Assembly (NCBI GenBank): GCA_946407725.1
Contig: CAMJPM010000001.1
Location: forward strand, 45,868-109,867
Reading direction: 5' to 3'
Source of the DNA: an uncultured Lachnospiraceae bacterium
GTDB taxonomy: Bacteria > Bacillota > Clostridia > Lachnospirales > Lachnospiraceae
DNA length: 64,000 nucleotides
Under the pieces are notes generated by a model. It had not been told where the DNA came from, did no database searches, and saw nothing but the letters and a program-made list of their open reading frames with translations. Of the stretch, positions 7,287 to 62,006 are shown one piece after another. Both the position numbers and the translations under genes were made by a program. Position 1 is the first letter of the stretch. The number at the start of each line of letters is the position of its first letter.

Positions 7287-7302
7287 ACTGTCATTCTCCT
7301 TT

Positions 7303-7319: not shown

Positions 7320-7337
7320 GCTTTGCATACTCGATAT

Positions 7338-7366: not shown

Positions 7367-7388
7367 CATAATGTTGCGGGACTACAGC

Positions 7389-8810: not shown

Positions 8811-8865
8811 CCGTAATGCCGGGTTCAGGACAGTGATCCGTCAGGAACTGTTTTTTCACAGATCC

Positions 8866-9828
8866 TTATATAAGATCCGTAAACCGCCTTATCATATTAA
8901 ACCATAATTCCAGCTGTATACGGGCATAATTCTTCAGATTCTTTGATGAATAGGGGAACTTCCTCCCCTCACGGCAGAGTATGTATCCCCTCTTTATACC
9001 CGAAAGATATGGCCTCCCATAGCCGGTGAAAATAAAAAACAGCGCCTTAATCCCGAAACCGAAGAGCAGGAACGGCAGATTTATTAGTATCTGCAGGGAA
9101 GGCATGTTTTTCATCACAATGTACATATTGTTCCTGGCGGAAAGCCGCACCTTGAAATCATTGTATCTGGAGCCCGAAACCCCGCTGCCAAGGTGATATA
9201 TCACGGCATCCGGACAGTATACATTTCTGTATCCCATGATCCGAGCCCTGTAGCCGATATCGATATCCTCAAGGTATGCAAAATGGAATTCATCAAACCA
9301 GCCTATCTCATCTAAGATCTTTCTCCTGTAGATGGCCCCGCCCCCGCAGGCGGAAAAGACATCTGTCTTCGACGAATATCTGTGGGATCTTTTATTCTTT
9401 CCCCTGGCAAAGGCCCAGCCGAATGCACAGTAAAGATCCCCGGCCCCGTCTATCCTGTCCGGCTTCATAAGCTGCAGCATCTTTGAGGATACGGAAAAAA
9501 TCTTTTCATCCTCCTTAATGGTGGATAAAAGATTCTCCACAAATCCACGGTCCGCCTTTGTGTCATTATTCATAAGAATGACAAAGGGCGTGTCGGAGGC
9601 CTTTATTCCTTCATTTACAGCCCTGGAAAAGCCAAAATTGTCGGAAAGCTCAATAAGGGTGACATCCGGATATTCGTTCTTTACTATATCCGTGCTCCCG
9701 TCCTTTGACATATTATCGACTACAATCACCCTGAAATCCTTTATGGTCTGGTCTTTCAGGGAATCAAGGCAGTCCCTTATATACTTTTCTCCCCGGTAAT
9801 TGGGGATTATCACAGTTACTTCGTTCAT
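8866..9828 (-). CDS. Family 2 glycosyltransferase
   Basis: A 320-residue GT-A enzyme beginning EVTVIIPNYRGEKYIRDCL with VVDNMSKDGSTDIV and the DxD-like MNNDTKADRGF near residue 90. The acceptor region has GWFDEFHFAYLEDIDIGYRARI, typical of COG1216 rhamnosyl/galactosyl transferases. The last ~80 residues include two hydrophobic stretches (LLFGFGIKALFFIF) that may sit in the membrane. Its ATG overlaps the stop of the upstream GT2 gene by 4 bases (ATGA-type), so it is translationally coupled within the glycan operon. Donor and acceptor are unknown. Confidence 0.88.
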   Translation of the reverse strand: MNEVTVIIPNYRGEKYIRDCLDSLKDQTIKDFRVIVVDNMSKDGSTDIVKNEYPDVTLIELSDNFGFSRAVNEGIKASDTPFVILMNNDTKADRGFVENLLSTIKEDEKIFSVSSKMLQLMKPDRIDGAGDLYCAFGWAFARGKNKRSHRYSSKTDVFSACGGGAIYRRKILDEIGWFDEFHFAYLEDIDIGYRARIMGYRNVYCPDAVIYHLGSGVSGSRYNDFKVRLSARNNMYIVMKNMPSLQILINLPFLLFGFGIKALFFIFTGYGRPYLSGIKRGYILCREGRKFPYSSKNLKNYARIQLELWFNMIRRFTDLI

Positions 9829-34286: not shown

Positions 34287-36311
34287 TTACTGCACCATGG
34301 GGGCTGGGCTGGCGTTCAGGGTGAAATTGCTGTGATCCAGGGAGAAATTGGGGTTGTAATAGGGATCTCCCTTTTCAAGATCCTCCTTCCACTTTTCCCT
34401 GAAATGCGCAGCTTCCGCATTATAGCGTTCAGTGCGTCCTCTGTCGGAGCCATCGGTATCATCTCCTCTGGAGGCACTCTCATAGTGATAGAGCTCCGAA
34501 AACGGGGTGAACACGTTTAAGAGCCCAAGATGCCTGAGCTTTAAGCAGAAATCCACATCATTAAGAGCCACGGCAAAGCTCTCGTCAAAGCCCTGTACCC
34601 GGTCAAAATCGCTTTTTTTCACCATAAGGCAGGCTCCGGTCACTGCGGAGACATTCTGGGCATAGCAGAGCCGCCCCATGTATCCCAGGTTTTCCCTATG
34701 GAGCCGGTAATGGGTATGCCCCGCTGTCCTGTGGGCGCCAAGTCCCAGCACTATCCCCGCATGCTGTACCGTATTATCCTCATAATAGAGCTTGCAGCCC
34801 GCAGCTCCCACATCCTCTCTCTGGGCGTACATAAGGAGATTTTCTATCCAGTTCCTTGTAATTACCTCGGTATCATTATTTAAGAAGAGCAGAATCTCAC
34901 CCTCTGCCGCCGCTGCACCGGCGTTTATGAGCTTTGAGAAATTAAAGCCCTCTCCCTCCGGTCTTTCGTATTCAATAACCCTGGCAAAGGAAACCTTTCC
35001 CAGAGTGGCGTAGTACTCTCTTGTTTCGCTCTCCCTGCTCCCGTTTTCCACGATCACTATCTCGTAATTATCATAGGAACTCCTGTTTATAATGGAATCC
35101 ACACATCTCTTCAGATCTGCGGCGTGGTCACAGCTCGGGATTATGATACTCACCCTGGGATGCGCCGTAAGGGCAAAACGGATCCGGAATATGGTGGCAA
35201 AAGCCTTTGTGCTCTCTATCTCAAAATCCTTAAAGCCACAGGAGGTAAGGTGGGAAGCCACGGCCCCCTTGGCGGAATTGATAGCATAGGTTTTGGAATT
35301 GATGTCCGCTGCCGTGGAACCCTCATGGCTTCTCCAGTAATACAGTATGGCCGGAACGTGGCGGATGCATTTTGCTTCCTTTGTGAGACGCAGGATCATG
35401 TCGTGATCCTGGCTGCCGTCAAATTCACTTCTGAAGCGGCCGCATTTATCCGAAAGCTCCCTGCTGAAAACCGAAAAATGGCAGATATAATTATTTGCCC
35501 TGAGATTGTCTATTGCAAAATCCGGCTTGAAATGCATGGTCACCATATTGTTTATGCTGTCACCCTTGAAGGTGGCTTCATCACAGTACAGAAAATCCGC
35601 CCCCGTTTCCTCGATCTCCTTCATATAGCGGAAGAGAACCGAAGGATGAAGCAGGTCATCATGGTCAAAAAGCCCTATGTAATCACCATTTGCAAGCTCG
35701 AAACAGACATTGGTGTTTCCGGAGATTCCAAGGTTCTTTTCTATCTTTCTGTACTTTATACGGCTCACACGGGCGGGATTGTTCTTTTCGTCGCTCTGAA
35801 CATACTGCTTTATCACCTCTCCCACATACTTATGCTCTTCATCGGAGCCGTCGGCGATGCACAGCTCCCATCCTGGGTATGTCTGATTCGTAACGCTCTC
35901 TATCATCTCCCGCAGGAATTTTTCGGGTGTATTGAATACCGGTACCAGGATACTCACAACATGCCTTTCCTTAAAGACATGGGAGCTCTCCTCCCTCCGC
36001 CTTTCCTCATCGGGGAAGCTTAAGGTACCGTGGAATTTATAAGCGTTTTTCTCCACCCTCTTGCTCTTCAGTTTCCTTATGAACTCCGAAAAGCTGCCAA
36101 GACGCTTTATCCTGACGATCACCGCAAGTGTTTTGGCATAGACAGTCCGGAAGGGCTTTATCATCTTAAAAAGCCTGCTTCTTTTCAGGGTGTCCAGCTT
36201 TTCCTTCATTTCGGAATTCTCTTCCTCCACCCTGACAAGCTCCTCTGTCAGCCGTTCATTCTTCTTTTTTTCCTGTTCATACAGGTCTTTATAATAATTA
36301 TCAAGGCTCAT
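34287..36311 (-). CDS. Two-domain family 2 glycosyltransferase with N-terminal coiled coil
   Basis: A 674-residue protein. Residues ~8-46 form a charged heptad-rich coiled coil (EQEKKKNERLTEELVRVEEE). GT-A domain 1 (about 115-370) has SILVPVFNTPEKFLREMIES, GLFDHDDLLHPSVLF and EFDGSQDHDMILRL. GT-A domain 2 (about 385-660) has SIIIPSCDHAADLKRCVDSI, LLFLNNDTEVITRNWIENLL and ALNDVDFCLKLRHLG. Two active GT2 domains on one chain suggest it makes a disaccharide unit or polymerises a backbone. It overlaps the upstream GT by 4 bases and is the last gene of the Wzm/Wzt operon. Domain 1 is paralogous to the enzyme at 9825-11192. Confidence 0.9.
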   Translation of the reverse strand: MSLDNYYKDLYEQEKKKNERLTEELVRVEEENSEMKEKLDTLKRSRLFKMIKPFRTVYAKTLAVIVRIKRLGSFSEFIRKLKSKRVEKNAYKFHGTLSFPDEERRREESSHVFKERHVVSILVPVFNTPEKFLREMIESVTNQTYPGWELCIADGSDEEHKYVGEVIKQYVQSDEKNNPARVSRIKYRKIEKNLGISGNTNVCFELANGDYIGLFDHDDLLHPSVLFRYMKEIEETGADFLYCDEATFKGDSINNMVTMHFKPDFAIDNLRANNYICHFSVFSRELSDKCGRFRSEFDGSQDHDMILRLTKEAKCIRHVPAILYYWRSHEGSTAADINSKTYAINSAKGAVASHLTSCGFKDFEIESTKAFATIFRIRFALTAHPRVSIIIPSCDHAADLKRCVDSIINRSSYDNYEIVIVENGSRESETREYYATLGKVSFARVIEYERPEGEGFNFSKLINAGAAAAEGEILLFLNNDTEVITRNWIENLLMYAQREDVGAAGCKLYYEDNTVQHAGIVLGLGAHRTAGHTHYRLHRENLGYMGRLCYAQNVSAVTGACLMVKKSDFDRVQGFDESFAVALNDVDFCLKLRHLGLLNVFTPFSELYHYESASRGDDTDGSDRGRTERYNAEAAHFREKWKEDLEKGDPYYNPNFSLDHSNFTLNASPAPMVQ

Positions 36312-38134
36312 CCTGCGGCAAACCCTCCGTAATGCCCGAAAATGTTCTTCTTCATCAATAATATTGTCACATTCTCCCGGGTGATGTACCCGTTAAATAA
36401 TGAGTTCTTTATTTTTACCGAAAACCCGGAAAAAAGGATATCCCTCTCCGATGGAAAGACGGTAATGAGATCCTCTCTCGGGACCCTCATGGTTTCTGTA
36501 TAATACTGTCTGTCCCCATCCTTTATGAGAAGGGAAATGCCGTATTCATAACCGGCTCTTCCATGAACAAAGCCCCAGCCGCTGATTTCAAGAAAATCCT
36601 CATTCCCCGCGGCATCGGAAAGCTTTTTTTCCAGAGTGTCCAGACTGAATAAAACCCGCCCGTCCCTCCGGTCTTTTTTAAGCTTTATGGTCTCTCCCGC
36701 CCTTTTTACCGTGACATATCTCCCGGTTTCACTGACTTCACATTCTGAAAGAGCGGTTACCAGGGACACCCTGTCCTCCGGGGAAGGATAATTTACCCTG
36801 TAGTCCAGCCCTGTATCCGTAAGATTCCTGCTGTACCAGGGATCACCCCTCTTAATAAGCTCCCCGTACTTTTCGTAATATCGCTCCCTCTCTCCTTTTA
36901 ACCTTAAATACTTTTCCCTTTCATCCTTATCGCTCCTCCTGGAAAGACTCTCGTGATGAATAAGGTAAACATCATTGAGGCATACGTTATAATAGCCCTT
37001 TAATAAAAGGGAGCTGCAAAGATCCACATCCGTATAGGCTATGTGAAAGGTCTCGTCAAAGCCTCCGGCTTCCAGGAATTTTTTCCTCTCCACCATAAGA
37101 CAGGCACCTGTAACTGCAAATACATTTATCCTTCTGCGGTTCACCCCCCGGTAATACTCCCTGCTGTCATCATAGCCTGTAAGCTTATGGCTTGCACCGC
37201 TTTTCAGCAAAGTTATGCCGCAGTGCTGTATCAGCTTTCCCCCGGGATAGAGGAGCTTTATTCCCACTGCCCCGGTCCTTTTCCCTGCGGCGTGACCCAT
37301 CATCTCTTTTAAAAAATAAGTGCCTTCCGGTACCTCTATATCATCATTTAGAAAGAGTAGAAATTCTCCATCCGTGATTTCAGCCCCTTTATTGCAAAGA
37401 GCCGAATAAATAAAGTCCCTTTTCTCCCGGACATACCGGAAGGAGAGTTCCTCAGCCAGTCTTTCATATTCCGCGGTGTTTTCCCCGGTGCTGCCGTTAT
37501 CAATAATGAGACACTCCGTTTTTATCCCTTCAGCCTCTGCCGCACTTAAAAGCCCTTTCACGCAGGTCTCCGCCAGCTTCGGATGGTCTTTGGAAAGGAT
37601 GACCACCGAGATAACAGCATCATTAAGTCCGGTTTCTTCCCGGTTCCCGGTGTTTTCATACAAATAGTCCCTGTGGGAATAAGCGTGACAGAGCACCTCC
37701 GGGATATGTAAAGGCTTTTTTGCTCTTTTTCCGCACTCCCTTAAAAATTCCGGGGAACCCACGGCAAAACCACAGACCCGCCCTGTTTCCTCCGCAAGTG
37801 CATTAGACACTATGGTAAGAGCTCCGGGATAATAGAAGCTCTCTAAGGTATCGGGAGAGTAATCGGGCTTAAAAAAAGGGTCGTGACGCAATCCCTCTCC
37901 GTCAACCTCATCCTCATCCGTATAGATAAAGTCATAACCCCCGTTAAATACCTGATAATCCTGCAGGGCAGACATAAGACCGGGATCCGCATACCCTCCG
38001 TCATCAAGGAATAAGCAGCAGTTACCGGGTATGACAAGATCCTTTTTTTCCCTTTTTATCTCCTTTTCCCTGATCCAGAGAGAATACGGGTCCTCAAAGC
38101 CTGTTTTTAATCTGTTATAATCTTCCTTCGTCAT
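36308..38134 (-). CDS. Large family 2 glycosyltransferase with degenerate N-terminal GT and C-terminal beta domain
   Basis: A 608-residue protein. Residues ~40-150 are a shortened GT-A remnant (CCLFLDDGGYADPGL, FIYTDEDEVDGEG, FFKPDYSPDTLESFYYPGAL) without the first strand. A full GT2 domain follows at about 170-430: SVVILSKDHPKLAETCVKGL, LLFLNDDIEVPEG and AYTDVDLCSSLLLKG. The last ~130 residues are beta-rich (ISGWGFVHGRAGYEYGISLL) and resemble an accessory module seen at the end of other clostridial glycosyltransferases. It is 3 bases from the methyltransferase-fusion gene and overlaps the next GT by 4 bases. It probably extends the exported polysaccharide. Confidence 0.87.
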   Translation of the reverse strand: MTKEDYNRLKTGFEDPYSLWIREKEIKREKKDLVIPGNCCLFLDDGGYADPGLMSALQDYQVFNGGYDFIYTDEDEVDGEGLRHDPFFKPDYSPDTLESFYYPGALTIVSNALAEETGRVCGFAVGSPEFLRECGKRAKKPLHIPEVLCHAYSHRDYLYENTGNREETGLNDAVISVVILSKDHPKLAETCVKGLLSAAEAEGIKTECLIIDNGSTGENTAEYERLAEELSFRYVREKRDFIYSALCNKGAEITDGEFLLFLNDDIEVPEGTYFLKEMMGHAAGKRTGAVGIKLLYPGGKLIQHCGITLLKSGASHKLTGYDDSREYYRGVNRRRINVFAVTGACLMVERKKFLEAGGFDETFHIAYTDVDLCSSLLLKGYYNVCLNDVYLIHHESLSRRSDKDEREKYLRLKGERERYYEKYGELIKRGDPWYSRNLTDTGLDYRVNYPSPEDRVSLVTALSECEVSETGRYVTVKRAGETIKLKKDRRDGRVLFSLDTLEKKLSDAAGNEDFLEISGWGFVHGRAGYEYGISLLIKDGDRQYYTETMRVPREDLITVFPSERDILFSGFSVKIKNSLFNGYITRENVTILLMKKNIFGHYGGFAAG

Positions 38135-38137: not shown

Positions 38138-40345
38138 TCACTGTGACAGGGTTACGGAAATGAATTCCGGTCTGGTGCCTTTAATAAGATGCTTGAAACC
38201 GGAACCGGAATTGTCTATGGGCATGGCAAATTCAAATGCCAGAGGCTTAAAGAACCTCTCATCCAGGGTACTGATATGGTATTCCACGTGAAGCTTCATT
38301 CCCTGCATCACATTCTCCAGAATTATCTGGGAATCCACAGTATCAAAGATCAGCACATTCTCACTTATTGCGGTACCGTTTATCAGGCACTCCTTTACGG
38401 GCTCTCCGTTCAGCATCAGCTTATCTATCTTTACAAAGCATTTGTAATCCGCAGGATCTATTCTTATGGAAGTACATTTTTCCGGTATTACCGTATCAAA
38501 CATTATCCTGTCTTCATAATTCCGCTCGGCATTGATGATAAGACAGTCTTCAGCCTGCCAGCCTATCCCCCTGTCAAAATAAACAAGAGGTTTTTCGGGC
38601 CGGTTCAACAGCCTGGACTTCATCAATGTCTGCTCCAGGGGAATATTATTGCCTCCGAAAATGGAATACATACCGGTTAATGTTATATGACGTCCCGAAA
38701 TATGGCGCTGGAAAGCCTGTTCCATCTCATAAAAAATCCCCATGTGTCCGGCATCGATACCCACCTTCTGGTAAATGCCGTCAAATTCCTCGGGCTCCGT
38801 CACTCCAAGGGATGAAAGGAAATAGCTTATGGCCCTGAAGATCACAAAATCCACGGGAATTGGGAAATCATAGACCCACTCATAATCTATGATGTTCCAG
38901 CCGTTATTGTATATGAGATTTGAGAATATAAGATCCACATCCGTGACCATCATACTCCGCAGACTGCCGGGAAGACCTGTCACCCCGAAGACCTCTGCAA
39001 ATTCCCTGGTTGCCCAGAATTCCCTTACCGCCGGCCGTCTTATGGCTTCCGAAAAATTAATTACTGCCTGAACACACTCGGCACCCCTGCCGATGGCGAG
39101 AAGCCTTTTCAGCTCCTCATCCATGCTGCGTCCCACAATATAATCAAATTCCAGTCTGGTGAATTCCCCGTAGGGGTCATAGATCTTTCTCACCGGACAG
39201 GGCTTAAAGCTACTTCCCTTAAACTCCGTAAATATCCCCTCATAGGCGTCCGCCATACGCAGAAGATGGGGCACGGCCTCCCTGGAAAAGGGGGTTTTCT
39301 CCACAACAATCTTGTGGTTTCCGTCCTCCGTGATATCTGTCCTTATCTGAAACTGCGGATCCCTTTCGGTAGAATGCTTGGAATAGACAGGATGGCGCTC
39401 CATCATGCTCTCTATGCGGTTCTCTTTCTGCAGCACCACAAGGAAGGAGTTTGAGAAAAAGGGAAAATAGCCGTCGGAGAGCGCCTCGTCAAAGGCAACC
39501 CCCTCATCAAAGAGAGTTATCCTCTCTCCGTCAAAATTCCGCTCATTCTCATTGAACTCACCCTTAAAGGGCAGCCTGTCATCGGAATATATGGTGACCG
39601 GAAGCTTGTAATCCGGATAAGGATAGAAAAACCTGTATTCATACCCGGCCTTATGGGCGATCCTCATAAGTCTTGATCTGGAAAAGGTTCTGACACCGCC
39701 TCCGTGGGGATATCCCTCTATGCCGTCAAAATAGCGTCCCGTATGATCTTCCCTGCACCCGGCAAAATACTTCATGCCGTATTTATTCTCTATGGCGATT
39801 ATTATCTGCCCTCCCTGTGCCAGATGGGAGGAGAGCAGGGTAAGGAACTCGTGGAAGGGATCCTTTGCATCGATGTATGAGGGCGCATATTCCAGCACCC
39901 CGATAAGAAGGATATAATCATACTTATCCTCAAGGTGTTTTTCTATATCCTGGAAATTTCCCACACGGATATCTATGTTGCCGAATTGCATGTTTCTGTA
40001 AGCGTTGATGAGGCTCCGCTTGTAACTCAGCTCCACGCAGGTAACATGTCCCGCCTTCCTTGCCACTGTTCCTGTAATGGCACCACAGCCCGAGCCTATC
40101 TCCAGTACCTTATGCTCCCTTTTGAAGGGAAAAAAGTCCACGATATTTCCCCGCATATGTGAGAGATGGTAAAGCAGGCTCCAGCTCCTTTCCGAGGCCA
40201 CCAGGCGGTTAAACCCGGCTTCCCCATGCTCCTTCACGATGGAGAGCAGCCTGTCCTCTTCGGCTCCTTCGGAATACCGGTCATCTCCCGTATAGTCGCT
40301 TAAGTCAATTATGACTTCACCTATTTTTTCCGTTGTCTCACTCAT
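38138..40345 (-). CDS. SAM-dependent methyltransferase fused to a kinase-like domain (WbdD-like?)
   Basis: A 735-residue protein. The Rossmann methyltransferase at ~55-270 has motif I VLEIGSGCGAI at 80-90, TCVELSYKRSLI, and YDYILLIGVLEYAP. Residues ~345-560 look kinase-like: HKIVVEKTPFSREAVPHLLR, FDYIVGRSMDEELKRL, then VTDVDLIFSNLIYNNG and WNIIDYEW (about 467-488), placed like the catalytic loop and metal-binding motif of APH/protein kinases, though His-Gly-Asp is replaced by Thr-Asp-Val-Asp. A beta-rich C-terminus follows. Methyltransferase-kinase fusions next to Wzm/Wzt are known as WbdD, which caps O-polysaccharides. Here the gene follows wzt by 4 bases. The kinase assignment is inference. 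Confidence 0.75.
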   Translation of the reverse strand: MSETTEKIGEVIIDLSDYTGDDRYSEGAEEDRLLSIVKEHGEAGFNRLVASERSWSLLYHLSHMRGNIVDFFPFKREHKVLEIGSGCGAITGTVARKAGHVTCVELSYKRSLINAYRNMQFGNIDIRVGNFQDIEKHLEDKYDYILLIGVLEYAPSYIDAKDPFHEFLTLLSSHLAQGGQIIIAIENKYGMKYFAGCREDHTGRYFDGIEGYPHGGGVRTFSRSRLMRIAHKAGYEYRFFYPYPDYKLPVTIYSDDRLPFKGEFNENERNFDGERITLFDEGVAFDEALSDGYFPFFSNSFLVVLQKENRIESMMERHPVYSKHSTERDPQFQIRTDITEDGNHKIVVEKTPFSREAVPHLLRMADAYEGIFTEFKGSSFKPCPVRKIYDPYGEFTRLEFDYIVGRSMDEELKRLLAIGRGAECVQAVINFSEAIRRPAVREFWATREFAEVFGVTGLPGSLRSMMVTDVDLIFSNLIYNNGWNIIDYEWVYDFPIPVDFVIFRAISYFLSSLGVTEPEEFDGIYQKVGIDAGHMGIFYEMEQAFQRHISGRHITLTGMYSIFGGNNIPLEQTLMKSRLLNRPEKPLVYFDRGIGWQAEDCLIINAERNYEDRIMFDTVIPEKCTSIRIDPADYKCFVKIDKLMLNGEPVKECLINGTAISENVLIFDTVDSQIILENVMQGMKLHVEYHISTLDERFFKPLAFEFAMPIDNSGSGFKHLIKGTRPEFISVTLSQ

Positions 40346-40349: not shown

Positions 40350-41639
40350 TCAAAACTCCTGAAGACGGCTTTTTTCTACTGTTGTCTCCATGCCCATGTC
40401 GTAATAGCCGGTGGTATCCTTCGATGAAATGCAGTTGATGCTGAAAACATCATACATTCTGTTATATACCGTGAATTCCCCGTTTCTGTATCCCACAAGT
40501 CCCAGGGATATCAGGTATTCCCCGCCCTGAAGCGACATATCCTGCGTAAAAGTGGCAGTCAGTATATCGTTTTCCCCCGGTTCTCCTGTATCTATCTTTT
40601 CAAACATGGTATTGGTGCCGGTTATCTCCACACCCATCCTGTTCTTAAATGATACGGCTATTATGGGCTGTGATATCTTTTCATGGAAAAGACATTTCAC
40701 CTTTATGGAAAAACTGTCCCCCTTCATAATGGTATTTGTAACCTGGCCGCTGTTATCCACACAGCAAAAATCAATTATGTCCGCAAGGCCGTTGCCGTAG
40801 CTGTCAAAGGAGGGGTTGATGCTCATGCGGTCCCTCCACTTGCCCTTTCCCGAGGCGGAAACATTATTTCTGTTAAAGCTTTTATTACTTTCAGTTGCGC
40901 TATTGTCCAGCTGATGGACCAGCACCTTTTTATACATGTCTATTATCTCTTTAGGCGCACCCTCAGCGATCTTCTTTCCCCGGTCAAGGAGCACCACCCT
41001 GTCACAGTACTTGGAAATGCTGGAAAGATCGTGGCTCACAAAGAGTATGGTCTTTCCCGCTTTACGGAATTCCTCAAATTTGTGATAGCATTTATTCTGA
41101 AAGAACACATCTCCCACGGACAGAGCCTCATCCACTATCAGGATCTCCGGATCGATATTTATGGCCACTGCAAAGGCCAGTCTCACAAACATTCCGCTGG
41201 AATAGGTTTTAACCTGCTGGTAGGCAAAGTCCCCGATGTCGGCAAAATCCAGAATGTCATTAAGCTTGCTGTCTATCTCCGCCTTGGAGAAACCGGTCAT
41301 GGTTCCGTTAAGATAGATATTCTCGATCCCCGTAAACTCCATATTAAATCCCGCCCCCAGCTCAAGAAGGGCAGAGATCCTGCCGTTTATCGACACATTT
41401 CCGGAGGTAGGATTTAAAACCCCTGTAATAATCTTTAAGATAGTGGACTTGCCGGAGCCGTTGGTCCCGATTATACCCACGGTCTCCCCCTGTTCCACGC
41501 TTAAGGATACATCATGCAGGGCAAAATGCTCATGATAGAGCTTTTTTTTCGTAAGCCCCAGGGCATCCCGTACACGATCCCTATGATGGTCGTATAGTTT
41601 ATACATTTTATTCAGATGTTCGACTCTTATTGCTTCCAT
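40350..41639 (-). CDS. wzt: Polysaccharide ABC exporter ATP-binding protein with Wzt C-terminal domain
   Basis: The ATPase of a polysaccharide exporter. The 429-residue protein has an ABC domain (about 1-250) with Walker A GIIGTNGSGKST (56-66), signature TYSSGMFVRLAFA, Walker B EILIVDEALSVGD and FVSHDLSS. A C-terminal ~160-residue beta-sandwich (FCCVDNSGQVTNTIMKGDSF, TFTQDMSLQGGEYLISLGLV) is the Wzt_C carbohydrate-binding domain, which in known systems recognises the modified end of the polymer. It follows the permease by 9 bases and precedes the methyltransferase fusion by 4 bases. This linkage supports export after chain capping. Confidence 0.95.
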   Translation of the reverse strand: MEAIRVEHLNKMYKLYDHHRDRVRDALGLTKKKLYHEHFALHDVSLSVEQGETVGIIGTNGSGKSTILKIITGVLNPTSGNVSINGRISALLELGAGFNMEFTGIENIYLNGTMTGFSKAEIDSKLNDILDFADIGDFAYQQVKTYSSGMFVRLAFAVAINIDPEILIVDEALSVGDVFFQNKCYHKFEEFRKAGKTILFVSHDLSSISKYCDRVVLLDRGKKIAEGAPKEIIDMYKKVLVHQLDNSATESNKSFNRNNVSASGKGKWRDRMSINPSFDSYGNGLADIIDFCCVDNSGQVTNTIMKGDSFSIKVKCLFHEKISQPIIAVSFKNRMGVEITGTNTMFEKIDTGEPGENDILTATFTQDMSLQGGEYLISLGLVGYRNGEFTVYNRMYDVFSINCISSKDTTGYYDMGMETTVEKSRLQEF

Positions 41640-41648: not shown

Positions 41649-42641
41649 TTACATAACATCAGCGAAGTGTACTTTAAGCCTTTTAAACACAAGGGCGCCG
41701 AATAAAAACATTACTGCCGAAAAGATCCAGAAATATGCGGTGGAATAAAAGTGCTCCCAGAACCACATATGATCCAGAAGCGCCATTCTGTAGCCGTCCA
41801 CCACGTAGTATACGGGATTGATCTTGAATAATACCTGCAGGGGACGGGGAAGGGCTTCAATATGCCACATGATGGGGGTGATCCATACCCCGACCTGAAG
41901 CGCTATACCTATGATCTGTGAAAGATCCCGGAAAAAGACGACTATTGAACAGGTGACATAGCTCATTCCCAGTACCAGTATAAACACACAGAAGGTAAAA
42001 TAGGGAAGCTGCAGCCAGTATATATCCGGATAATATCCGCAGATTATCAGCAGGATACAGGCAACTAATGTCAGGAATACGTGAATGAACAGAGCGCTTA
42101 TAACCTTGATGATGGGAAGGATACTGATCTTAAACACCACTTTTTTTACCAGATACTGATAGGACAGCAGTGCGCTGGTTCCCTGTCCCAGGGCATCGGA
42201 AAAGAAAAACCAGGGGGTTATGCCGGCGATCAGCCACAGAACAAAGGGGTAGGTGGTCTCCCCCGTAACATCGGTCCTAGCTCCAACCGAAAAAACAAAC
42301 CAGTACACCAGCACCGTCACCACCGGCTGTACAAAAGCCCAGAAAATGCCTAGATAGGAGCCTGCGTATTTAGATCTGAAGTCATTTAAGGCAAGCTTCC
42401 AGATGAGCTCCCGGTTCTCATAGAGCTCCATGGGCAGTGACACTATCCTGTCATATCCCAGGATAAAGCCTATGAACGCGGCATCGATCATACAGCAGGA
42501 TATAATCTTTTTTAATATCTCCTGCATGGGATCAGCAAGCTCATTTGTATGAAGGATTATATAGGAATTCCAAATAACGGCAATTATTACTGCCGCTGCT
42601 ATCACCTTTTTCCTGTCTTTATCCAAAAAACTTTCCTGCAT
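41649..42641 (-). CDS. wzm: Polysaccharide ABC exporter permease (ABC-2 type)
   Basis: A 330-residue membrane protein. An N-terminal hydrophobic pair (AAVIIAVIWNSYIIL; ISCCMIDAAFIGFI), somewhat longer than usual, precedes the ABC-2 core. The core begins NRELIWKLALNDFRSKYAGSYLG, the cytoplasmic/elbow motif of Wzm/TagG-type permeases, then six helices, with IAGITPWFFFSDALGQGTSA and WITPIMWHIEALP. It pairs with the Wzt ATPase to move undecaprenyl-linked polysaccharide across the membrane. It is 2 bases after rfbC. Confidence 0.94.
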   Translation of the reverse strand: MQESFLDKDRKKVIAAAVIIAVIWNSYIILHTNELADPMQEILKKIISCCMIDAAFIGFILGYDRIVSLPMELYENRELIWKLALNDFRSKYAGSYLGIFWAFVQPVVTVLVYWFVFSVGARTDVTGETTYPFVLWLIAGITPWFFFSDALGQGTSALLSYQYLVKKVVFKISILPIIKVISALFIHVFLTLVACILLIICGYYPDIYWLQLPYFTFCVFILVLGMSYVTCSIVVFFRDLSQIIGIALQVGVWITPIMWHIEALPRPLQVLFKINPVYYVVDGYRMALLDHMWFWEHFYSTAYFWIFSAVMFLFGALVFKRLKVHFADVM

Positions 42642-42643: not shown

Positions 42644-43204
42644 TTAAGCTTCCGGGAACTGGCTCTTAAAATCAGGCCAGTTTCTGTCCCTGTCATTTAT
42701 GTTCAGTTCCTCTGATCCTATCTCGTCAGGCCAGATAATGCCTATATCGGGATCATCGTATTTTAATCCCCCGTCATCTCCGGGATGGAAGAAATCATCA
42801 CATTTATAGACAAATTCGGCGATGTCGGAGAGTACCAGGAAACCATGGGCGAAACCTCTGGGAATGAAGAGCATTTTCTTGTTTTCGGCGGAAAGCTCCA
42901 CACCAAACCATTTTCCGAAGGTCTCCGATCCCTTCCTTAAATCTACCGCCACATCATACACCCTGCCCTTTATCACCCGGACAAGCTTGGCCTGGGGATG
43001 GTTTATCTGGAAATGCATTCCCCTTAAAACCCCCTTTGATGAAGAGGACTGGTTATCCTGAACGAATTCAACCCCTATCCCTGCTTCGGTAAACTGATCC
43101 TTTCTGTAGGTCTCCATAAAGTAACCCCGTTCATCCCCGAAAACCTCGGGTGTGATCACCTTAAGTCCCTCTATTTCACAGGTTTCAACTTTTATCTGTC
43201 CCAT
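42644..43204 (-). CDS. rfbC: dTDP-4-dehydrorhamnose 3,5-epimerase
   Basis: The third enzyme of dTDP-L-rhamnose synthesis; epimerises dTDP-4-keto-6-deoxyglucose at C3 and C5. The 186-residue cupin has VITPEVFGDERGYFMETYRK, QDNQSSSSKGVLRGMHFQ with the catalytic His near 63, and the DLRKGSETFGKWFGVELS and PRGFAHGFLVL stretches. Length is normal. It is separated from rfbA by the GH25 gene and followed by wzm. Confidence 0.96.
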   Translation of the reverse strand: MGQIKVETCEIEGLKVITPEVFGDERGYFMETYRKDQFTEAGIGVEFVQDNQSSSSKGVLRGMHFQINHPQAKLVRVIKGRVYDVAVDLRKGSETFGKWFGVELSAENKKMLFIPRGFAHGFLVLSDIAEFVYKCDDFFHPGDDGGLKYDDPDIGIIWPDEIGSEELNINDRDRNWPDFKSQFPEA

Positions 43205-43296: not shown

Positions 43297-44544
43297 TCAC
43301 AGTGACAGGTTCAAATCCAGATCCACGTATCCCTCTATCCCGTCTACGTGTCCCCTGGAAGAGTACTGCCACAGATCATATCTTCCGTCGTATGTAGGCC
43401 GTTTCACCTTATATTGCGCAAGCCATATGGTAAAATCCTCTAATTCATCCGCATTTATATATGCCGTGAACCACCTTTTATTAGCATATACGCCGGCTCT
43501 GTACCCGTATGTTTCCAGTGTCTGTGCAAAGGCTCTTATATTCTTTGTTCTCTGGTCCTTCGTGAGGTCATCACCCCTGCCTCCGGAGGATTCCACATCC
43601 AGAAACACCGGCAGATCCAGCTGTTCCCTGGGACAGAGCTCCCTCACCATACTGGCTTCCTCAACTGCCTCTGTCTCATTTAATGCCTGGGTGAAAAAAT
43701 ATACCCCGGTTTTCAGCCCGGCTGCCCTGGCTCCCTTTATATTCTTCTCATAATAGGAATCCTCCACCAGCGACCCGGAGCCTGAGCCTCTGTAGCCCAG
43801 CCGTATTATGGCATATTCTATGCCCGAAGCCTTAACCTTTTCCCAGTCGATATCCTTATTATATTTTGAAACATCTATTCCCGTGATACCGCTGCCAAGG
43901 TCGATCTCTCCCTGATTTAAGAGCTTTCCGTCATCCTCTTCACCTATATCCGCAGTGTCCTCAGCCTCTGCGTCTATCTCATCCTCAGTCCTGATAAGGG
44001 TTCTGATATAGCTTACCGCCTGATAGGATATGTCGCTCCTTACCGTCAGGGTACTGTCTTTTTCCGGGGTTATGAAGCCCTCCACGGGTTTCAGACGGAC
44101 TGTATACTTTCCGCCGCTTAAGTCCGTTGCGGCTATGATGCCGTCCCGGTCACTGTCTTCGTACTCCCGGATATCCCCGTCCTTTGATATCTCTGCCCTG
44201 AAGGGAACTCCCGTGACCACGGTACCGTCCCGGAGGGTGATTATCATCTTAAGATCCTTATTAACCGAGGAAAGCAGCACCTCCAGACGGGGCCATTTCC
44301 CGTCAGGAGCTTTTTCTTTCCCTGTATCATTCCCGTGACCGTCTGCCTTTTGGATACCGGAATCCCTGATATCCCTGTATTCCCCGCTTTGGGCGGTTTC
44401 CGGTTTTTCCCCGGTTTTTACGGCTTCTACCCCCTGTCCAGGGGCTTCGCCTTCTCCTGCCACCTTCATCAGAAACACAAAGAAAGCGGCCACAACCAGT
44501 AATGCGGCTGCGACCGCAAATATCCGGAATTTTCTAAACGTCAT
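43297..44544 (-). CDS. Membrane-anchored GH25 lysozyme-like muramidase
   Basis: A 415-residue extracytoplasmic protein with a signal anchor at about residues 7-27, a Gly/Glu/Lys linker, a small beta domain at about 85-185 (MIITLRDGTVVTGVPFRAEI; GKYTVRLKPVEGFITPEKD), an acidic linker, then a GH25 domain (about 218-415). The latter has GITGIDVSKYNKDIDWEKVK, YAIIRLGYRG, the catalytic pair region LPVFLDVESSGG and DLWQYSSRGHVDGIEGYVDL. It cuts the glycan strand of peptidoglycan. It lies 4 bases after rfbA within the rhamnose/exporter operon, suggesting it opens the wall for polymer insertion. Confidence 0.93.
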   Translation of the reverse strand: MTFRKFRIFAVAAALLVVAAFFVFLMKVAGEGEAPGQGVEAVKTGEKPETAQSGEYRDIRDSGIQKADGHGNDTGKEKAPDGKWPRLEVLLSSVNKDLKMIITLRDGTVVTGVPFRAEISKDGDIREYEDSDRDGIIAATDLSGGKYTVRLKPVEGFITPEKDSTLTVRSDISYQAVSYIRTLIRTEDEIDAEAEDTADIGEEDDGKLLNQGEIDLGSGITGIDVSKYNKDIDWEKVKASGIEYAIIRLGYRGSGSGSLVEDSYYEKNIKGARAAGLKTGVYFFTQALNETEAVEEASMVRELCPREQLDLPVFLDVESSGGRGDDLTKDQRTKNIRAFAQTLETYGYRAGVYANKRWFTAYINADELEDFTIWLAQYKVKRPTYDGRYDLWQYSSRGHVDGIEGYVDLDLNLSL

Positions 44545-44548: not shown

Positions 44549-45433
44549 TCATGCTCCCTTATGGGGCACGACCTGCGCTATGTCAAGAAGATACTGTCCG
44601 TATGCCGTCTTCTGGAGCGGTTCCGACAGCTTAATGAGCTGTTCCCTGTCTATGAAGCCCCTTTTATATGCGATCTCCTCTATACAGGAGATATAGAGCC
44701 CCTGTCTTTTCTGGAAAGCTCCCACAAAGTCGGCAGCATCAAGAAGGGAATCATGGCTGCCTGTATCCAGCCACGCAAAGCCCCGTCCCAGGGTCTCCAC
44801 GTACAGCTTTCCCCGGCGCAGATACTCGTTATTAACCGAGGTGATCTCCAGCTCCCCTCTGGCTGAAGGCTTAACATTCGCCGCTATATTCACCACGTCA
44901 TTGTCATAGAAATAGAGCCCCGGAACTGCGTACCTGGATTTCGGATGCTCCGGCTTTTCCTCAATGGAGACCGCCTTGCCTTCGCTGTCAAACTCCACTA
45001 CCCCGTAGTCCTTCGGGTTCTTTACATAGTATCCGAAAATTGTCGCTCCCTCTTCCCTGGAAGCCGCGCTCCTTAACACCCTTGAAAAATCATGGCCGTA
45101 GAAAATATTGTCCCCAAGGACCATGGCCACCCTGTCGTCTCCGATAAAGTCCGCCCCTATGATAAAGGCCTCCGCAAGACCGTTTGGCTGTTCCTGAACC
45201 TTATATGTAAATTTTAAGCCCAGATCGGATCCGTCCCCGAAAAGCTCTTCAAAAACCGGCAGATCCCTCTTTGTGGAAATGATCAGTATATCCCTTATCC
45301 CTGCAAGCATCAGTGCAGACAGGGGATAATAGATCATAGGCTTGTCATAGACCGGCATTATCTGTTTCGATACGGCTTTTGTAAGGGGATACAGCCTGGT
45401 GCCGCTTCCTCCTGCCAGAATTATTCCTTTCAT
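44549..45433 (-). CDS. rfbA: Glucose-1-phosphate thymidylyltransferase
   Basis: Makes dTDP-glucose from dTTP and glucose-1-phosphate. The 294-residue protein begins [20 protein letters not shown], the nucleotide-binding signature, and has [32 protein letters not shown] and [20 protein letters not shown]. The ATG at 45433 is preferred to the GTG two codons upstream because GGGAGG is 6 bases from the ATG but directly abuts the GTG. That ribosome binding site lies in the last codons of rfbB, so translation is coupled. Confidence 0.97.
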
Positions 45434-45435
45434 GG

Positions 45436-46515
45436 TCACCTCCCGCTGTACATATTCTCATAATATGACTGATAATCACCGCTTGTCACGTGTCGCAGCC
45501 ACTCTTCATTGGATAAATACCACTCTATGGTCTTCCTGATACCGTCCTCAAAGCGGGTTTCCGGCTCCCAGGAAAGCTCCTTCCTTATCTTGTCCGGGGC
45601 GATGGCGTAACGCCTGTCGTGTCCCTTCCTGTCTGTGACATATTTTATGAGATCCTCACTCACATTCTTTTTCCTCTCATCACTGTCGGGCAGGATCTCC
45701 CTCAGGGTATCGAGGATAATGTGGATGATCTCAATATTCTCTTTTTCATTATGTCCGCCGATATTGTATTTCTCTCCGATACGTCCGCCCCTTAAGACCA
45801 TGTCAATACCCTTGCAGTGGTCATCCACATAAAGCCAGTCCCTGACATTCTTTCCGTCTCCGTATACAGGCAGGTCCTTTCCCTGAAGGGCATTATTTAT
45901 CATCAGCGGTATCAGCTTCTCCGGGAACTGATAGGGTCCGTAATTATTTGAACAGTTGGTGATGACAGCCGGGAACTGATAGGTGTCCACATAGGCTTTT
46001 ACAAGAAAATCCGAGGAGGCCTTGCTGGCGGAATAGGGGCTGTGAGGCGAATAGGGTGTATCCTCATAGAAATAGTCATCCGGATCCGAAAGTGATCCAT
46101 ATACCTCATCCGTAGAAACATGCAGGAATCTCTTTCCCTCCTTATAACCGTCTCCGGTCTCCCATGCTTCCTTTGCGGCGTTGAGCATCACAAGGGTTCC
46201 GAGGACATTGGTCTCCACAAAGACCTCCGGATTCTCAATACTTCTGTCCACATGGCTTTCCGCAGCAAAATTCACCACATAGTCTATGTCATTTTCCTTA
46301 AATATCTTCCTGATGGCTTCCCTGTCCCGGATATCGGCCTTTACAAATGTGTAGTCGTACTTCTCTTCTATTCCTTTGAGATTTTCCAGGTTGCCGGCAT
46401 AGGTAAGTACATCTGCGTTGATGATCCTTATCTCCTGTCCGTATTTTCCAAACATATAGTGAATGAAATTTGAACCTATAAATCCCGCTCCTCCGGTCAC
46501 CAGATATGTTTTCAC
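45436..46515 (-). CDS. rfbB: dTDP-glucose 4,6-dehydratase
   Basis: Second step to dTDP-rhamnose. A 359-residue extended short-chain dehydrogenase with [11 protein letters not shown] (NAD binding, 7-17), [11 protein letters not shown], the catalytic STDEVYG (Asp136/Glu137), and [11 protein letters not shown] with Tyr161 and Lys165. The start is GTG at 46515, with GGAGG 7 bases upstream. It is the first gene of the Wzm/Wzt operon and follows a strong promoter (46560-46589). Confidence 0.97.
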
Positions 46516-57165: not shown

Positions 57166-57443
57166 ATTGTAACAGACGAGCACCGGCGGCGCAACAAGGA
57201 GCGGACTTTATGGCTTGAGGAGAAATGAGGGACAGTTTTCCCGCGAAGCTTTGTTTTCCCGGGAGACCGGGCGCATTTTTTTGACTCGTCTGTATATAAT
57301 AGCAGGAAGCAGTATATTCCGTTTTTATATAAACCTTCAAACTTTCTATTATGCCGCCTAAAGAGTGCGGCACCAAAGGGTTCACGCCGCTCATATCGGG
57401 CGGCAGGATAACAATTACTGGAAAGGAACGGCACAGACAAAAC

Positions 57444-60400
57444 ATGGGATTAACATTTGTATTTGATGTACCTTCAAATCTGAATAAGGATAAGCGTAAG
57501 ATCTTTGAGGAGAAAACAAAGCCTCTTGAGGGAAAAATATTCTCCGGTCCCGCCGAACTGAAGAAGGCATATAACGATCTGGCAAATAACTTAAAGAAAG
57601 ACGGGATCGAACTCTATAAGACCGGCTTCAGGCATAGTGGCGAGATCATGTCTATGCTTCAGTCCTCCTTTCAAGGGCTGGTAAATGCTGCCGCCACACC
57701 GGAAGAAAAAAGCAAATGGCAGAAATACTTCGATGAAGTGAATACCATATTTGCCGAAGCCATGGCATTAAATGAAAGCAATAATCCAAATAATACCGGC
57801 CAGTTCCAGATACAGGGAGATGGAGACAACATCGTTAAATCATCTGTCTATTCCGAGGAAGCCGAAAAAAGGATAGATGAAGGCTTAAGAAAGCTGAATA
57901 CTGCCCTTAGAGAAGAAATGAAGGGCTATCCTCCTGCAGGCAGTGTATACGGAAATAAGGATTTCATCAGGGAAAACCTGGAGATCATCCGCAACCTGAC
58001 AGATTATGCAATAAACGGCAACCTGATGATGGAGAACCTGACCCTTGGTGATTATACCAATGCCGTAAAGTCCATAAAGGGCATCATCCCCGGTATAAAG
58101 CCCTATGGCGTGGGGGTTAAGAAGGGTGCTGATAAGAGTTATGTAAGCGACTATGCACGCTTAAATCCGCTGCTGCCTTTAACTGCCCCTGCTCTCTGGG
58201 GAACCCGTCTTTTGAACGCTGAAAGCGAATACTATAACAAAGCGGACAAAAAAACGACGGGCCTTGATGATGAGATGCAGATCAGGGAGGAAATGCTCTC
58301 TTTAGGCTCCGAATGTCTTTATTCTATCGATAAGATCAGGAAAAACATTAAAAATGAGAATGTAAAAGAGGCTTTTCCAAGGGAGGCAAATGAAGCACAG
58401 ACAGATGCCATAGGAAACAGGAGCACTTTTTTCAAATGGGAAGCAACGCATAAGGCCAGGAGAAAGCTTATCGAAAACGGCTGGGCCATGGCTGACATCA
58501 CTGCTATAGGAAAAATGGCAGGTCTCATTCCCGCTTTCAAAAGGAACATGAATAACCTGGATCGGGCATGGGATGAATATGACGCTAATAAAGAGGCTGG
58601 AAATAAGCCTTCAAATCCCCGTTATTCAGAGGAAGAACGGAATGCTGTAAGTGAATTTGAAAACAAGCTCAATGCTTTGCTTTCTGAGGAGCCGAAAACT
58701 GCGGAGAGACGCAAGGAACTCCTTACATCCCTTGCGGAAGCAGTGGATGCTGTTCCTGACGGCTTAAAGAAGCGCTTCCGTGAGATCGAGGGATTGAAGA
58801 CAGGTATCAGTCTTGCACTGCAGCATGAGCTCTCCGAAACTGAAAAGGCTTTTTTAAGGGATCCGTCAAAGATCCGTGAAATTGCAGCCAAACACCCTGA
58901 CAAGGAATATACGGAGGCTGAACAGAGTAAAGACCTTCAATATCTTGCAGCGCTTAAACAAAAGGACGCAGAACTGAATAACATTGTTTCTGTTGATCCC
59001 TATGCCCATGATCATATAGTGGCGATGCAGGATTCCCTGGGAGGGGATACCCTGCAGTTTGCAAATGCCGTAAGATCCTGCATAGGTGAAAAGGAATGGA
59101 CAGCCTTTAAGGCAAAGAACGGACGTACTGACGACTATCATAAGGCTCTTGATATACTGACCCATCCGGATTCCAGGTTCAATGTGTCAAAGGATCACAA
59201 GCTCCTTCAGAACGTGGAGACAGCTCTGAAAATGAGGAAGCTTGAGGCACCCGGAAAGAATGTATCCAATCTGGGAAAAGCCGAAACAGGCGGATTTGGT
59301 GCGAAGATAAAAATAATAGCAGAGGTTCTTATCCCCGGCTTTGATTACAATAAGCTATCGGATGATGTAGACAAAAGCATTGATGAGGGTAAAGCCTATG
59401 ACAGGCAGAATGAGTATGTGGACCGCCTAAACTCCGTACTCCGCTCTCCGGGCAATCTGAACCGCGATCAGCAGAAGGAAGAGATCATGAAGTGCATAGT
59501 CGGTCTCATTATGCCTTATGCTTATGATTCCTTAAACTTTGATCCTGATAATGCTCTCCTTAAGAAGGAAAACCTGAACCCTGAGGAAAAGAAAGCACTG
59601 GAAACAGCCTATGCTGTTCCTTTTAACATAAAAGGCGGATTATTGAATGCTCCCTTCGCTGACAGACTGAAGGAGGTCTTAAAGGTTGTAGACAAGGGTG
59701 TTGACCGGATAGAAGCCCTAATGCTGGAAGAAAAACAGGTGGTTAACACGGTAAACCTGCAGCCCCTGAAAAGCTATTTGAAAAACGCCCTAAAAGGGAC
59801 AGCCTCAATGAAGATAAACGCTGCAGAGCCCTTAATAAAGATCGGAGAAGCGAATTACTCGGCACCGGTTAGGGAGATCGACCGGGAGAAAAACCCTATC
59901 ATCCCGGGAAAGACCAGGAATTATACCATTTCAGAAATTGAAGAAAAAGCAGAGATATTCCCGATACACAAGATCGTCAATGCCCAGTATGTGCTTAAGG
60001 AGATCTGGGGAGATTTCTACTCTGCACAGCAGAAGGGCAGATTAACCCCTGACGAAGAAAACAAATACTGGCAAAGGATCGATGAGCAATACTCTGTGAT
60101 CGAAAACCTGACAAAAGACCTCATGGCAAAACAGAAGGAAAATCCTGATTTTGTACACGATAACATGAGGACAATGCTTGGACAGTCCGGTGATTCGGAT
60201 TCTTCCTTTGAGGATATGATCTCAGGGAGCAGGGCGCTTCAGAGTGTCTTAAGGTATATCACACCACGGAGAGAGGCAAGGCAGAACGGATGGCCTATGG
60301 AAGAGCTGGGGCTATATACCCATCTCTGGGAAACCGGCAATCGTATAGATAATGCCATTAATAAGCTGGAAAAGGAAGGAGAAAAGTACAAGCCTTTTGT

Positions 60401-62006
60401 TGATGCTATTAAGGATCTGAACGGATATCTTAAGGACAAGGTGCTTTCAAAGCCCTATGAAAAGGATCCGGAAAAGAGGGCTGAGATCTATGATAATCTG
60501 GCGAAAAAGCTCCCGAAGGTCTGGGCAGAGAGGGAAAAGTTCGGAGGTCTCGACGACGTCCCGATCGATCTAAGGACTGAAATTACCGATCCGGTAGGTT
60601 TTTTCGAAAATGTCAATCCTGCGACCGAAGCCGGAGGCATGCCCCTTGCCTATGAGATAAAGCTCGCTGCCGCCGAAGCAAAGGTTGAGGCTGCGGAAAA
60701 AGTAAAACAGGAAATAGAGGAATTAAAGGAGACTGTAGATCCCATAGTCTACAATGACCTCAAACGGGATGCGAACAGCGTAACTCCGCCAAAGCAGAAT
60801 AAGCTTTTGATCGATACCGAGTTTGTGGAGAAGGTGGATGTCTACCTTAATTCCGGTGTTGCGGGACTGAAAAAGGAGGTAGATATCGTGCGGGCCGGAA
60901 AGGAGACCACCCTCGAAGCTAAAACGGGGCTAAAGACCGACAGGGCCATCAATGCGGTCAGGAATATGCTGGATGCCGCAGATTCCGCTTTCCACTTTGA
61001 TTCGAGCCAGTATAAGGATATAAAGAAGAGCCTCGATAAGTTTAAGGATGGCACCGCAACACAGGAGGACAGGCAGCGTCTTACGGATGATGTAAAGAAG
61101 TGGCTTACGGATCCTAAGTATGACAGGATACATAAGCACTCCAAAAAAGAATTCGATAATAACCGGTTCAATATAATGTTCACTCTTGCAAATGAGCTGG
61201 ATCCGGGGTGGGCAAAGGAGAATTTTGCCGACATGAATATTGCAGCTCTTCATGGCGAGAAGGCTGACAATACCTCCTTCCACAATGTCCATGAATTTAC
61301 AAACTTCATGCACAGGCAGATGGCGGATCTGGATCTCTTAAATGAAGTGGAGGCAGTCGGGAGCCAGCGCTGGTACTTAAAGACCGACAGCTACGGACAA
61401 AAGGGGCTTGTGGAGGAGGTGCTCCGGGTAAAGGAGCAGGCCGGCTACAGGGAAGAAGACGCCTTATTAGCGGAAGCCAGTAATTTAAGCAAACTTCTTG
61501 GATCCGATGATCCAAGAGAAGCTCAAAGCGAGATAGTAAAAACCTTCAGGAACCTCAATGCATACAGAAAAGATCTGATCGATGCGTTATCTGTCAATGA
61601 TCAGGCTCAATATGCCCTGAGGGGAGATAACCAATTAGATGAGCAGGCTGCTATCAGGTTCAACAAGGAATCCAGCTCCTACTTAAAGAATTTTGCAAAG
61701 TACACCAGAAAAAATGCATTAAAGGAACTGAAAGACTTTCTCGGTAAGCCTGAAAACCGGGAAAACCCGTTTTATAAAAAGGCAGTACTGGCATACGGCA
61801 CACTGGATCCCAGGGCTGCCCACGAATACATAGTAGGGCTTCATAATGATAAGAGCATTAAAAAAGATAATATAAGGAAGTTAAACCTGGTGACCCTGGA
61901 AAAGGAAGAAGGTCTTGATCTGGGCGGCAGGAAGGCTTTCCGCAAGATAAAGAGGGCAAAGGCCCAACAGCCGGTTAAGGAACAGAAGCCGCCAGAAAGA
62001 TCATAA
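57444..62006 (+). CDS. Very large, mainly helical protein of unknown function
   Basis: About 1,520 residues from MGLTFVFDVPSNLNKDKRKI. An in-frame ATG 31 codons upstream has no ribosome binding site; the chosen one has only AGGA at a long spacing (16 bases), so the start is uncertain. No signal peptide, transmembrane helix or lipobox. The composition is charged and helix-rich, with many EKK/KK-D stretches. A weak internal repeat is visible: RRKLIENGWAMADI near residue 335 and RREARQNGWPMEEL near 950, each followed by a similar helical segment. It ends in a lysine-rich tail (RKIKRAKAQQPVKEQKPPER). I do not recognise a family. It is convergent with the gene at 62072 and both are preceded by the same hairpin element. 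Confidence 0.85.
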   Translation: MGLTFVFDVPSNLNKDKRKIFEEKTKPLEGKIFSGPAELKKAYNDLANNLKKDGIELYKTGFRHSGEIMSMLQSSFQGLVNAAATPEEKSKWQKYFDEVNTIFAEAMALNESNNPNNTGQFQIQGDGDNIVKSSVYSEEAEKRIDEGLRKLNTALREEMKGYPPAGSVYGNKDFIRENLEIIRNLTDYAINGNLMMENLTLGDYTNAVKSIKGIIPGIKPYGVGVKKGADKSYVSDYARLNPLLPLTAPALWGTRLLNAESEYYNKADKKTTGLDDEMQIREEMLSLGSECLYSIDKIRKNIKNENVKEAFPREANEAQTDAIGNRSTFFKWEATHKARRKLIENGWAMADITAIGKMAGLIPAFKRNMNNLDRAWDEYDANKEAGNKPSNPRYSEEERNAVSEFENKLNALLSEEPKTAERRKELLTSLAEAVDAVPDGLKKRFREIEGLKTGISLALQHELSETEKAFLRDPSKIREIAAKHPDKEYTEAEQSKDLQYLAALKQKDAELNNIVSVDPYAHDHIVAMQDSLGGDTLQFANAVRSCIGEKEWTAFKAKNGRTDDYHKALDILTHPDSRFNVSKDHKLLQNVETALKMRKLEAPGKNVSNLGKAETGGFGAKIKIIAEVLIPGFDYNKLSDDVDKSIDEGKAYDRQNEYVDRLNSVLRSPGNLNRDQQKEEIMKCIVGLIMPYAYDSLNFDPDNALLKKENLNPEEKKALETAYAVPFNIKGGLLNAPFADRLKEVLKVVDKGVDRIEALMLEEKQVVNTVNLQPLKSYLKNALKGTASMKINAAEPLIKIGEANYSAPVREIDREKNPIIPGKTRNYTISEIEEKAEIFPIHKIVNAQYVLKEIWGDFYSAQQKGRLTPDEENKYWQRIDEQYSVIENLTKDLMAKQKENPDFVHDNMRTMLGQSGDSDSSFEDMISGSRALQSVLRYITPRREARQNGWPMEELGLYTHLWETGNRIDNAINKLEKEGEKYKPFVDAIKDLNGYLKDKVLSKPYEKDPEKRAEIYDNLAKKLPKVWAEREKFGGLDDVPIDLRTEITDPVGFFENVNPATEAGGMPLAYEIKLAAAEAKVEAAEKVKQEIEELKETVDPIVYNDLKRDANSVTPPKQNKLLIDTEFVEKVDVYLNSGVAGLKKEVDIVRAGKETTLEAKTGLKTDRAINAVRNMLDAADSAFHFDSSQYKDIKKSLDKFKDGTATQEDRQRLTDDVKKWLTDPKYDRIHKHSKKEFDNNRFNIMFTLANELDPGWAKENFADMNIAALHGEKADNTSFHNVHEFTNFMHRQMADLDLLNEVEAVGSQRWYLKTDSYGQKGLVEEVLRVKEQAGYREEDALLAEASNLSKLLGSDDPREAQSEIVKTFRNLNAYRKDLIDALSVNDQAQYALRGDNQLDEQAAIRFNKESSSYLKNFAKYTRKNALKELKDFLGKPENRENPFYKKAVLAYGTLDPRAAHEYIVGLHNDKSIKKDNIRKLNLVTLEKEEGLDLGGRKAFRKIKRAKAQQPVKEQKPPERS

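Follow-up and report, generated by a model that had tools for sequence, protein, structure and literature searches.

The chain terminator WbdD transfers a phosphate to O-3 of the terminal mannose and then methylates it (PMC3482155). The Klebsiella O7 protein ORF6 comprises a methyltransferase, an unannotated kinase of 223 aa, an Ig-like CBM, a coiled coil and two GT2 modules. The kinase of ORF6(O7) is not recognisable by sequence, the exchange D441A inactivates it, and the product formed in vitro, a 3-O-methylphosphate on the terminal rhamnose, was identified by MS and NMR (PMC11231755). Its authors call this kinase distinct from the WbdD kinase. The orthologues that they list come from alpha- and gammaproteobacteria and from cyanobacteria, and the main text is silent on Firmicutes, Bacillota and Gram-positives (PMC11231755). 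The one methyltransferase-kinase enzyme of the O7 type with biochemical proof is that of the Gram-negative Klebsiella. In Geobacillus stearothermophilus, WsaE, a methyltransferase-GT-GT protein that works with Wzm/Wzt, caps the S-layer rhamnan by 2-O-methylation (PMC2943079).

Here we describe a 735-aa protein encoded in a stretch of 64,000 nucleotides (the window) from an uncultured Lachnospiraceae bacterium. It is likely to be a chain terminator of the ORF6(O7) type for an ABC-exported, probably rhamnose-containing surface glycan. This reading is favored because of the fold of the protein, its invariant motifs, its homology to O7-type proteins, its linkage to Wzm/Wzt and the modular fusion and fission of its relatives.

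Gene organization and relatives

The gene for the 735-aa protein lies downstream of the wzt frame and is separated from it by 4 bases (Table 1), and the Wzt_C domain that the first-pass annotation had assigned to this Wzt was confirmed with PF14524. A search of one-per-species genomes yielded 79 relatives, nearly all from Lachnospiraceae, with identities between 29 and 81% in the aligned set. The methyltransferase-kinase terminator candidate occurs widely in Lachnospiraceae, in conserved synteny, and is also found in other monoderm Bacillota. Conservation is highest in the methyltransferase domain; the second domain is strict at isolated positions, namely K350, F400, G405, D471, N476, D487, E489, W490 and R504.

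Table 1. Features of the window and the evidence for their assignment
Feature	Position	Strand	Evidence
Methyltransferase-kinase terminator candidate	38138..40345	-	ORF, 735 aa, ATG start; AF2 pLDDT 87.3, pTM 0.76; 79 relatives
Class I SAM methyltransferase domain, residues 1-305	39431..40345	-	PF13489 E 2e-9; family profile vs P. asturiensis O7-type protein 206 bits
Predicted cryptic APH-like kinase domain, residues 313-566	38648..39409	-	AF2 pLDDT 93.5, pTM 0.90; Foldseek APH(3')-Ia E 2.7e-7, prob 1.00
K350, ATP-site beta-3 lysine position	39296..39298	-	73/74 relatives; 64/64 in kinase alignment
Catalytic loop D471-x4-N476	38918..38935	-	D, N 73/74 and 64/64; aligned with P. asturiensis D443, taken as ORF6(O7) D441
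I486-D487-Y488-E489-W490, Mg-binding DFG Asp position	38876..38890	-	D 73/74; E, W 74/74
Beta-sandwich-like module, residues 585-693; possibly O7 Ig-like CBM	38267..38593	-	strands in model
Wzt, ABC ATPase and Wzt_C carbohydrate-binding domain (~residues 280-415)	40350..41639	-	PF00005 E 5e-24; PF14524 E 8.3e-36
Wzm, ABC-2 permease	41649..42641	-	PF01061 E 5e-18
GT608, GT2 glycosyltransferase	36308..38134	-	PF00535 E 6e-11; position kept in most relatives
GT674, short N-terminal coiled coil and two GT2 modules	34287..36311	-	PF00535 E 1e-44, two stretches; 465 bits vs GT half of O7-type protein
Heptad-patterned segment, GT674 residues 7-48	36168..36293	-	heptad scan
rmlC, dTDP-4-dehydrorhamnose 3,5-epimerase	42644..43204	-	assigned from sequence; synteny
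GH25 muramidase-family protein	43297..44544	-	PF01183 E 3e-36; in most relatives
rmlA, glucose-1-phosphate thymidylyltransferase	44549..45439	-	PF00483 E 2e-77; synteny
rmlB, dTDP-glucose 4,6-dehydratase	45436..46515	-	assigned from sequence; synteny

Relationship to ORF6 of Klebsiella O7

As a stand-in for ORF6(O7) we used a plasmid protein of Pseudomonas asturiensis (L133, 1457 aa), which is encoded after wzm-wzt. This protein has Y28, Y66, G91, G93, E112 and Y158 exactly at the published ORF6 numbers, and its catalytic Asp is residue 443 compared with 441 in ORF6. Mapped via this protein, the six SAM-site residues correspond to Y24, Y59, G84, G86, E105 and Y153 of the window protein. Methyltransferase motif I, which had been placed at residues 80-90, was found as LEIGSGCG at 81-88, within a PF13489 match that covers residues 66-237.

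The family profiles built around the window proteins matched the stand-in over all three parts. The methyltransferase profile scored as listed in Table 1, with 3.5 bits for the best true decoy, and the kinase profile reached 25.6 bits (E 3e-7; hhalign 94% over 201 columns; best true decoy 5.8). The decoy with the highest score in the kinase run, L078, truly belongs to the family and had been left in the decoy set. The match of the GT674 family extends over residues 913-1450 of the stand-in (best true decoy 39.3). Mapped via the stand-in, D471 of the window protein corresponds to ORF6 D441. The beta module after the kinase gave no significant match to the O7-type protein (E 0.28 in the profile search, hhalign 6%).

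The window system resembles ORF6(O7) in a methyltransferase with all six SAM-site residues, a sequence-cryptic kinase with the matching catalytic Asp, a predicted beta-rich module after the kinase, a coiled coil ahead of two GT2 modules, and adjoining Wzm/Wzt and rml genes. It differs in being split over two proteins, with the coiled coil and both GT2 modules on the separate protein GT674, in the extra GT608, in a host that probably lacks an outer membrane, and in the kinase, which contains an insert and in which the beta-3 lysine is clear. Identity between the O7-type stand-in and the window protein is about 31% over 60% of the query. The P. asturiensis cluster on pCC1524 and the Citrobacter braakii cluster on pF217-3 (L132) share the order wzm-wzt-methyltransferase-kinase with the window, and in C. 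braakii rmlBACD lies upstream; both are Gram-negative and uncharacterised, and the P. asturiensis protein is fully fused to coil and GTs. The C. braakii rml-wzm-wzt-terminator-GT cluster is located on a conjugative plasmid, so that such glycan loci can be plasmid-borne.

The second domain and its putative catalytic residues

The second domain was not recognised by searches of Pfam, NCBIfam or PDB sequences. A Pfam scan of 64 kinase domains of the family gave APH in 2 (best E 0.08) and an OspG kinase in 4 (0.02), scores not above those of plainly unrelated families; a profile from the kinase alignment had no significant match among solved structures, the IsdB haem-binding domain appearing at E 0.04 and kinases at E 0.3-0.8. 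Structure prediction with AlphaFold2 using the family alignment gave a pLDDT of 87 for the whole protein and higher confidence for residues 313-566 alone (Table 1). With this isolated domain, Foldseek returned APH(3')-Ia as the top match (TM 0.52), followed by FGFR, Src-family kinases, PknG, PknB and APH(2'')-IVa, and all of the 50 matches listed were kinases. In the model the second domain is a kinase fold, with K350 on the third strand, D471 and N476 at the catalytic-loop position and D487 at the DFG position. A kinase function is thus predicted for a domain that the profile libraries searched had missed.

The motifs VTDVDLIFSNLI (at ~468-479) and IIDYEW (485-490) had been read from the letters as a kinase-like catalytic loop, and both the fold and their positions bear this out. 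D471, N476 and D487 are kept in 73 of 74 relatives and W490 in all 74; in the 64-sequence kinase alignment K350, D471, N476, D487, E489 and W490 are invariant. The outcomes that had been set beforehand as counting against a kinase were a different fold in this region or the lack of ATP-site residues across homologues. Neither outcome was observed: residues 313-566 were modelled as a kinase fold, and the four residues at ATP-site and catalytic positions are present in 64/64 sequences.

The active site is atypical in two respects. There is no evident helix alpha-C glutamate to pair with the lysine (position 356 is E in 38/64 and H360 is present in 62/64), and the HxD histidine is replaced by D or N; the beta-3 lysine itself is not clearly retained in the Proteobacterial homologues. 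These atypical positions could indicate that the kinase domain is dead or merely structural, and that the cap consists simply of an O-methyl group, like that of WsaE or of O8 WbdD. The WsaE cap does consist of methylation alone (PMC2943079), and degenerate relatives exist, L076 having lost the K, D, N and D and L114 the catalytic aspartates. We nevertheless consider this explanation unlikely, since K350, D471, N476 and D487 never vary in the kinase alignment, the homologous kinase of ORF6(O7) has an activity that the exchange D441A abolishes, and the genome of L114 has neither an adjoining Wzm/Wzt nor a Wzt_C domain.

Export cluster and host

The order rmlB-rmlA-GH25-rmlC-wzm-wzt, followed by the gene of the 735-aa protein, GT608 and GT674, is retained in about 50 loci. 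Upstream DNA of sufficient length was available for 72 loci, and in 58 of these a Wzt of 415-494 aa immediately precedes the terminator gene. Wzt_C was found in 43 of 399 Bacillota genomes: it is present in 9/12 genomes with a strong methyltransferase-profile match compared with 34/387 others (p 1.5e-7), and in 5/8 if the window's own family is excluded (p 3e-4), phylogeny being ignored in both calculations. The gene rmlD is located outside the window (C16:18605-19462, E 6e-90), so that dTDP-L-rhamnose can be made. LpxC and Omp85 are both absent from the window genome (G000, 98.3% complete), and an outer membrane is therefore probably absent.

Internal phosphate substituents occur on many Gram-positive cell-wall glycans, and the enzyme might place (methyl)phosphate on internal glycan residues without any capping of the end. 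This is improbable in view of the tight linkage to a Wzt with a C-terminal domain and of the homology to a proven end-capping enzyme. For the terminator reading, the clade L056-L070, in which no Wzm/Wzt adjoins the gene, was considered as a contradiction and rejected, as a Wzt_C gene was present in 3/3 genomes tested. In two genomes of this clade the rml-GH25-wzm-wzt cluster is intact elsewhere and the terminator gene is absent from it, which indicates that the terminator gene moved and the partner was not lost. Two genomes speak against the terminator reading: the kinase-bearing G150 has Wzm and a short Wzt without the C domain, and G200 has no Wzt_C.

In nearly all relatives (L004-L055) rmlA and rmlC flank the GH25 protein, which stays with rml-wzm-wzt even when the terminator gene is relocated; it is conceivable that it anchors the glycan to peptidoglycan. 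At L113 a 1376-aa methyltransferase-kinase-coil protein (6828-10958) is located beside a 258-aa Wzt without a C-terminal domain (4807-5583), an arrangement in which capping possibly occurs without the usual reader or with a separate one. Elsewhere in the window, the open reading frame 57351-62006 (1551 aa) matches nothing in Pfam at E 0.001.

Coiled coils, fusions and splits

A coiled coil had been predicted at the N-terminus of the glycosyltransferase two genes on. It is present in GT674, although short (about 40 residues) and with moderate heptad support, p<0.05 being reached in 22/42 homologues; its role as a length ruler is a hypothesis. A heptad scan of residues 313-735 of the 735-aa protein revealed no coil. 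Some relatives do carry a coil after the kinase: in the clade L056-L070 (612-622 aa), which has no beta module, a short predicted coil follows the kinase, with heptad support in L060 and none in L056.

The domains recur in several combinations. In L074, L081 and L082 a gene of its own encodes the methyltransferase, and the kinase domain shares a protein of 1041-1130 aa with a coil and two GT2 modules. The kinase domain of L079 is joined to a coil and other GTs, and L073 encodes a kinase-plus-coil protein of 313 aa. G220 encodes a 300-aa methyltransferase and a 519-aa kinase side by side after Wzt, and the monoderm G211 has a single 1555-aa protein with methyltransferase, kinase motifs and GT pair, one gene away from rml-wzm-wzt on the downstream side. 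Motifs of the D-x4-N and IDxEW type persist in divergent members, and the motif FDVVPWN of L113 is close to DDVRPWN of WbdD. Taken together, the fold, the invariant motifs, the synteny and these natural fusions uphold the first-pass picture of a methyltransferase fused to a kinase fold beside Wzm/Wzt, with the coil on a polymerase-type GT.

L076 (4031-5794) and L114 (7734-9383), the latter with Asn in place of the catalytic aspartates, are possible natural pseudokinases. L116, L118 and L119 resemble methyltransferase-kinase proteins; they carry DMVPLNS and FFDQEF motifs and have an additional domain that is nucleotide-binding-like. They sit in other glycosylation-type loci, with flagellin-like genes beside L118, and the kinase fold may serve elsewhere too.

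Comparison with WbdD and WsaE

With WbdD of E. coli O9a and Klebsiella O3 the window system shares a methyltransferase followed by a kinase fold in one chain, an upstream Wzt with a C-terminal domain and a coiled coil in the system. Using the whole model, Foldseek placed WbdD at ranks 2, 3, 7 and 9 with alignments of 526-590 columns spanning both domains, but the orientation of the domains differs (rmsd ~17 Å over the joint alignment). The coil is located on GT674 in the window and not on the terminator, and sequence homology is not detectable beyond generic motifs. BLASTP and hhalign against WbdD of E. coli HS (L083) found only the generic methyltransferase motif and no kinase alignment, and a similarity of the GT674 N-terminus to the WbdD tail (7.4 bits, E 0.06) was not counted. 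That the 735-aa protein is a true orthologue of E. coli O9a WbdD is hardly credible in spite of the shared domain order next to Wzm/Wzt and the second rank in Foldseek, since the family profiles gave 4.5 bits for the methyltransferase and no match for the kinase, the hhalign probability was 1%, and the O7 authors set their kinase apart from that of WbdD (PMC11231755). The label WbdD-like is thus apt for the mechanism but not for the ancestry, given the far higher scores of the same three profiles against the O7-type protein. Judged by sequence, the nearest characterised relative of the window terminator is Klebsiella O7 ORF6, not WbdD.

WsaE resembles the window system as a Gram-positive, multidomain protein with GTs that works with Wzm/Wzt on a rhamnan and forms a methyltransferase cap. 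It is set apart by its description, as its cap is 2-O-methyl and no kinase is reported.

Proposed function

In the terminator reading, GT608 and GT674 would act in the cytoplasm and lengthen a lipid-linked chain. The kinase domain would then phosphorylate the non-reducing end, most likely at O-3 of a terminal L-rhamnose, and the methyltransferase domain would methylate that phosphate. Such a cap would halt chain growth, and the C-terminal domain of Wzt would read it and thereby license export via Wzm/Wzt. With methyltransferase, kinase and beta module on one protein and the coil and GT pair on another, any length control would need their assembly. The activity, the reaction order, the methylphosphate product, the rhamnose acceptor, the recognition by Wzt and the role of the coil are what we infer for this system.

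The first-pass annotation had regarded a capping system with its parts distributed like this as new in a Gram-positive. Capping as such is already precedented by WsaE (PMC2943079), but a terminator that combines methyltransferase and kinase appears to be unreported for monoderm Bacillota, as does its spread over several polypeptides; we found no Gram-positive methyltransferase-kinase terminator in the open-access literature searched. The range of O7-type terminators would extend from Proteobacteria and Cyanobacteria to gut and rumen monoderm Bacillota, whose surface glycans are largely unstudied, and the proposal predicts a specific end group (methylphosphate) together with a specific reader (Wzt_C). 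With about even confidence we propose that methylphosphate is the cap that bacteria lacking an outer membrane place on an ABC-exported glycan of the wall or surface, and that the length-control coil of the terminator has been shifted onto the polymerase. Across Bacillota the modules are fused, split in two or three, or relocated, which would give natural variants of ruler geometry, and these fusions and splits offer material for testing the idea of a coiled-coil ruler.
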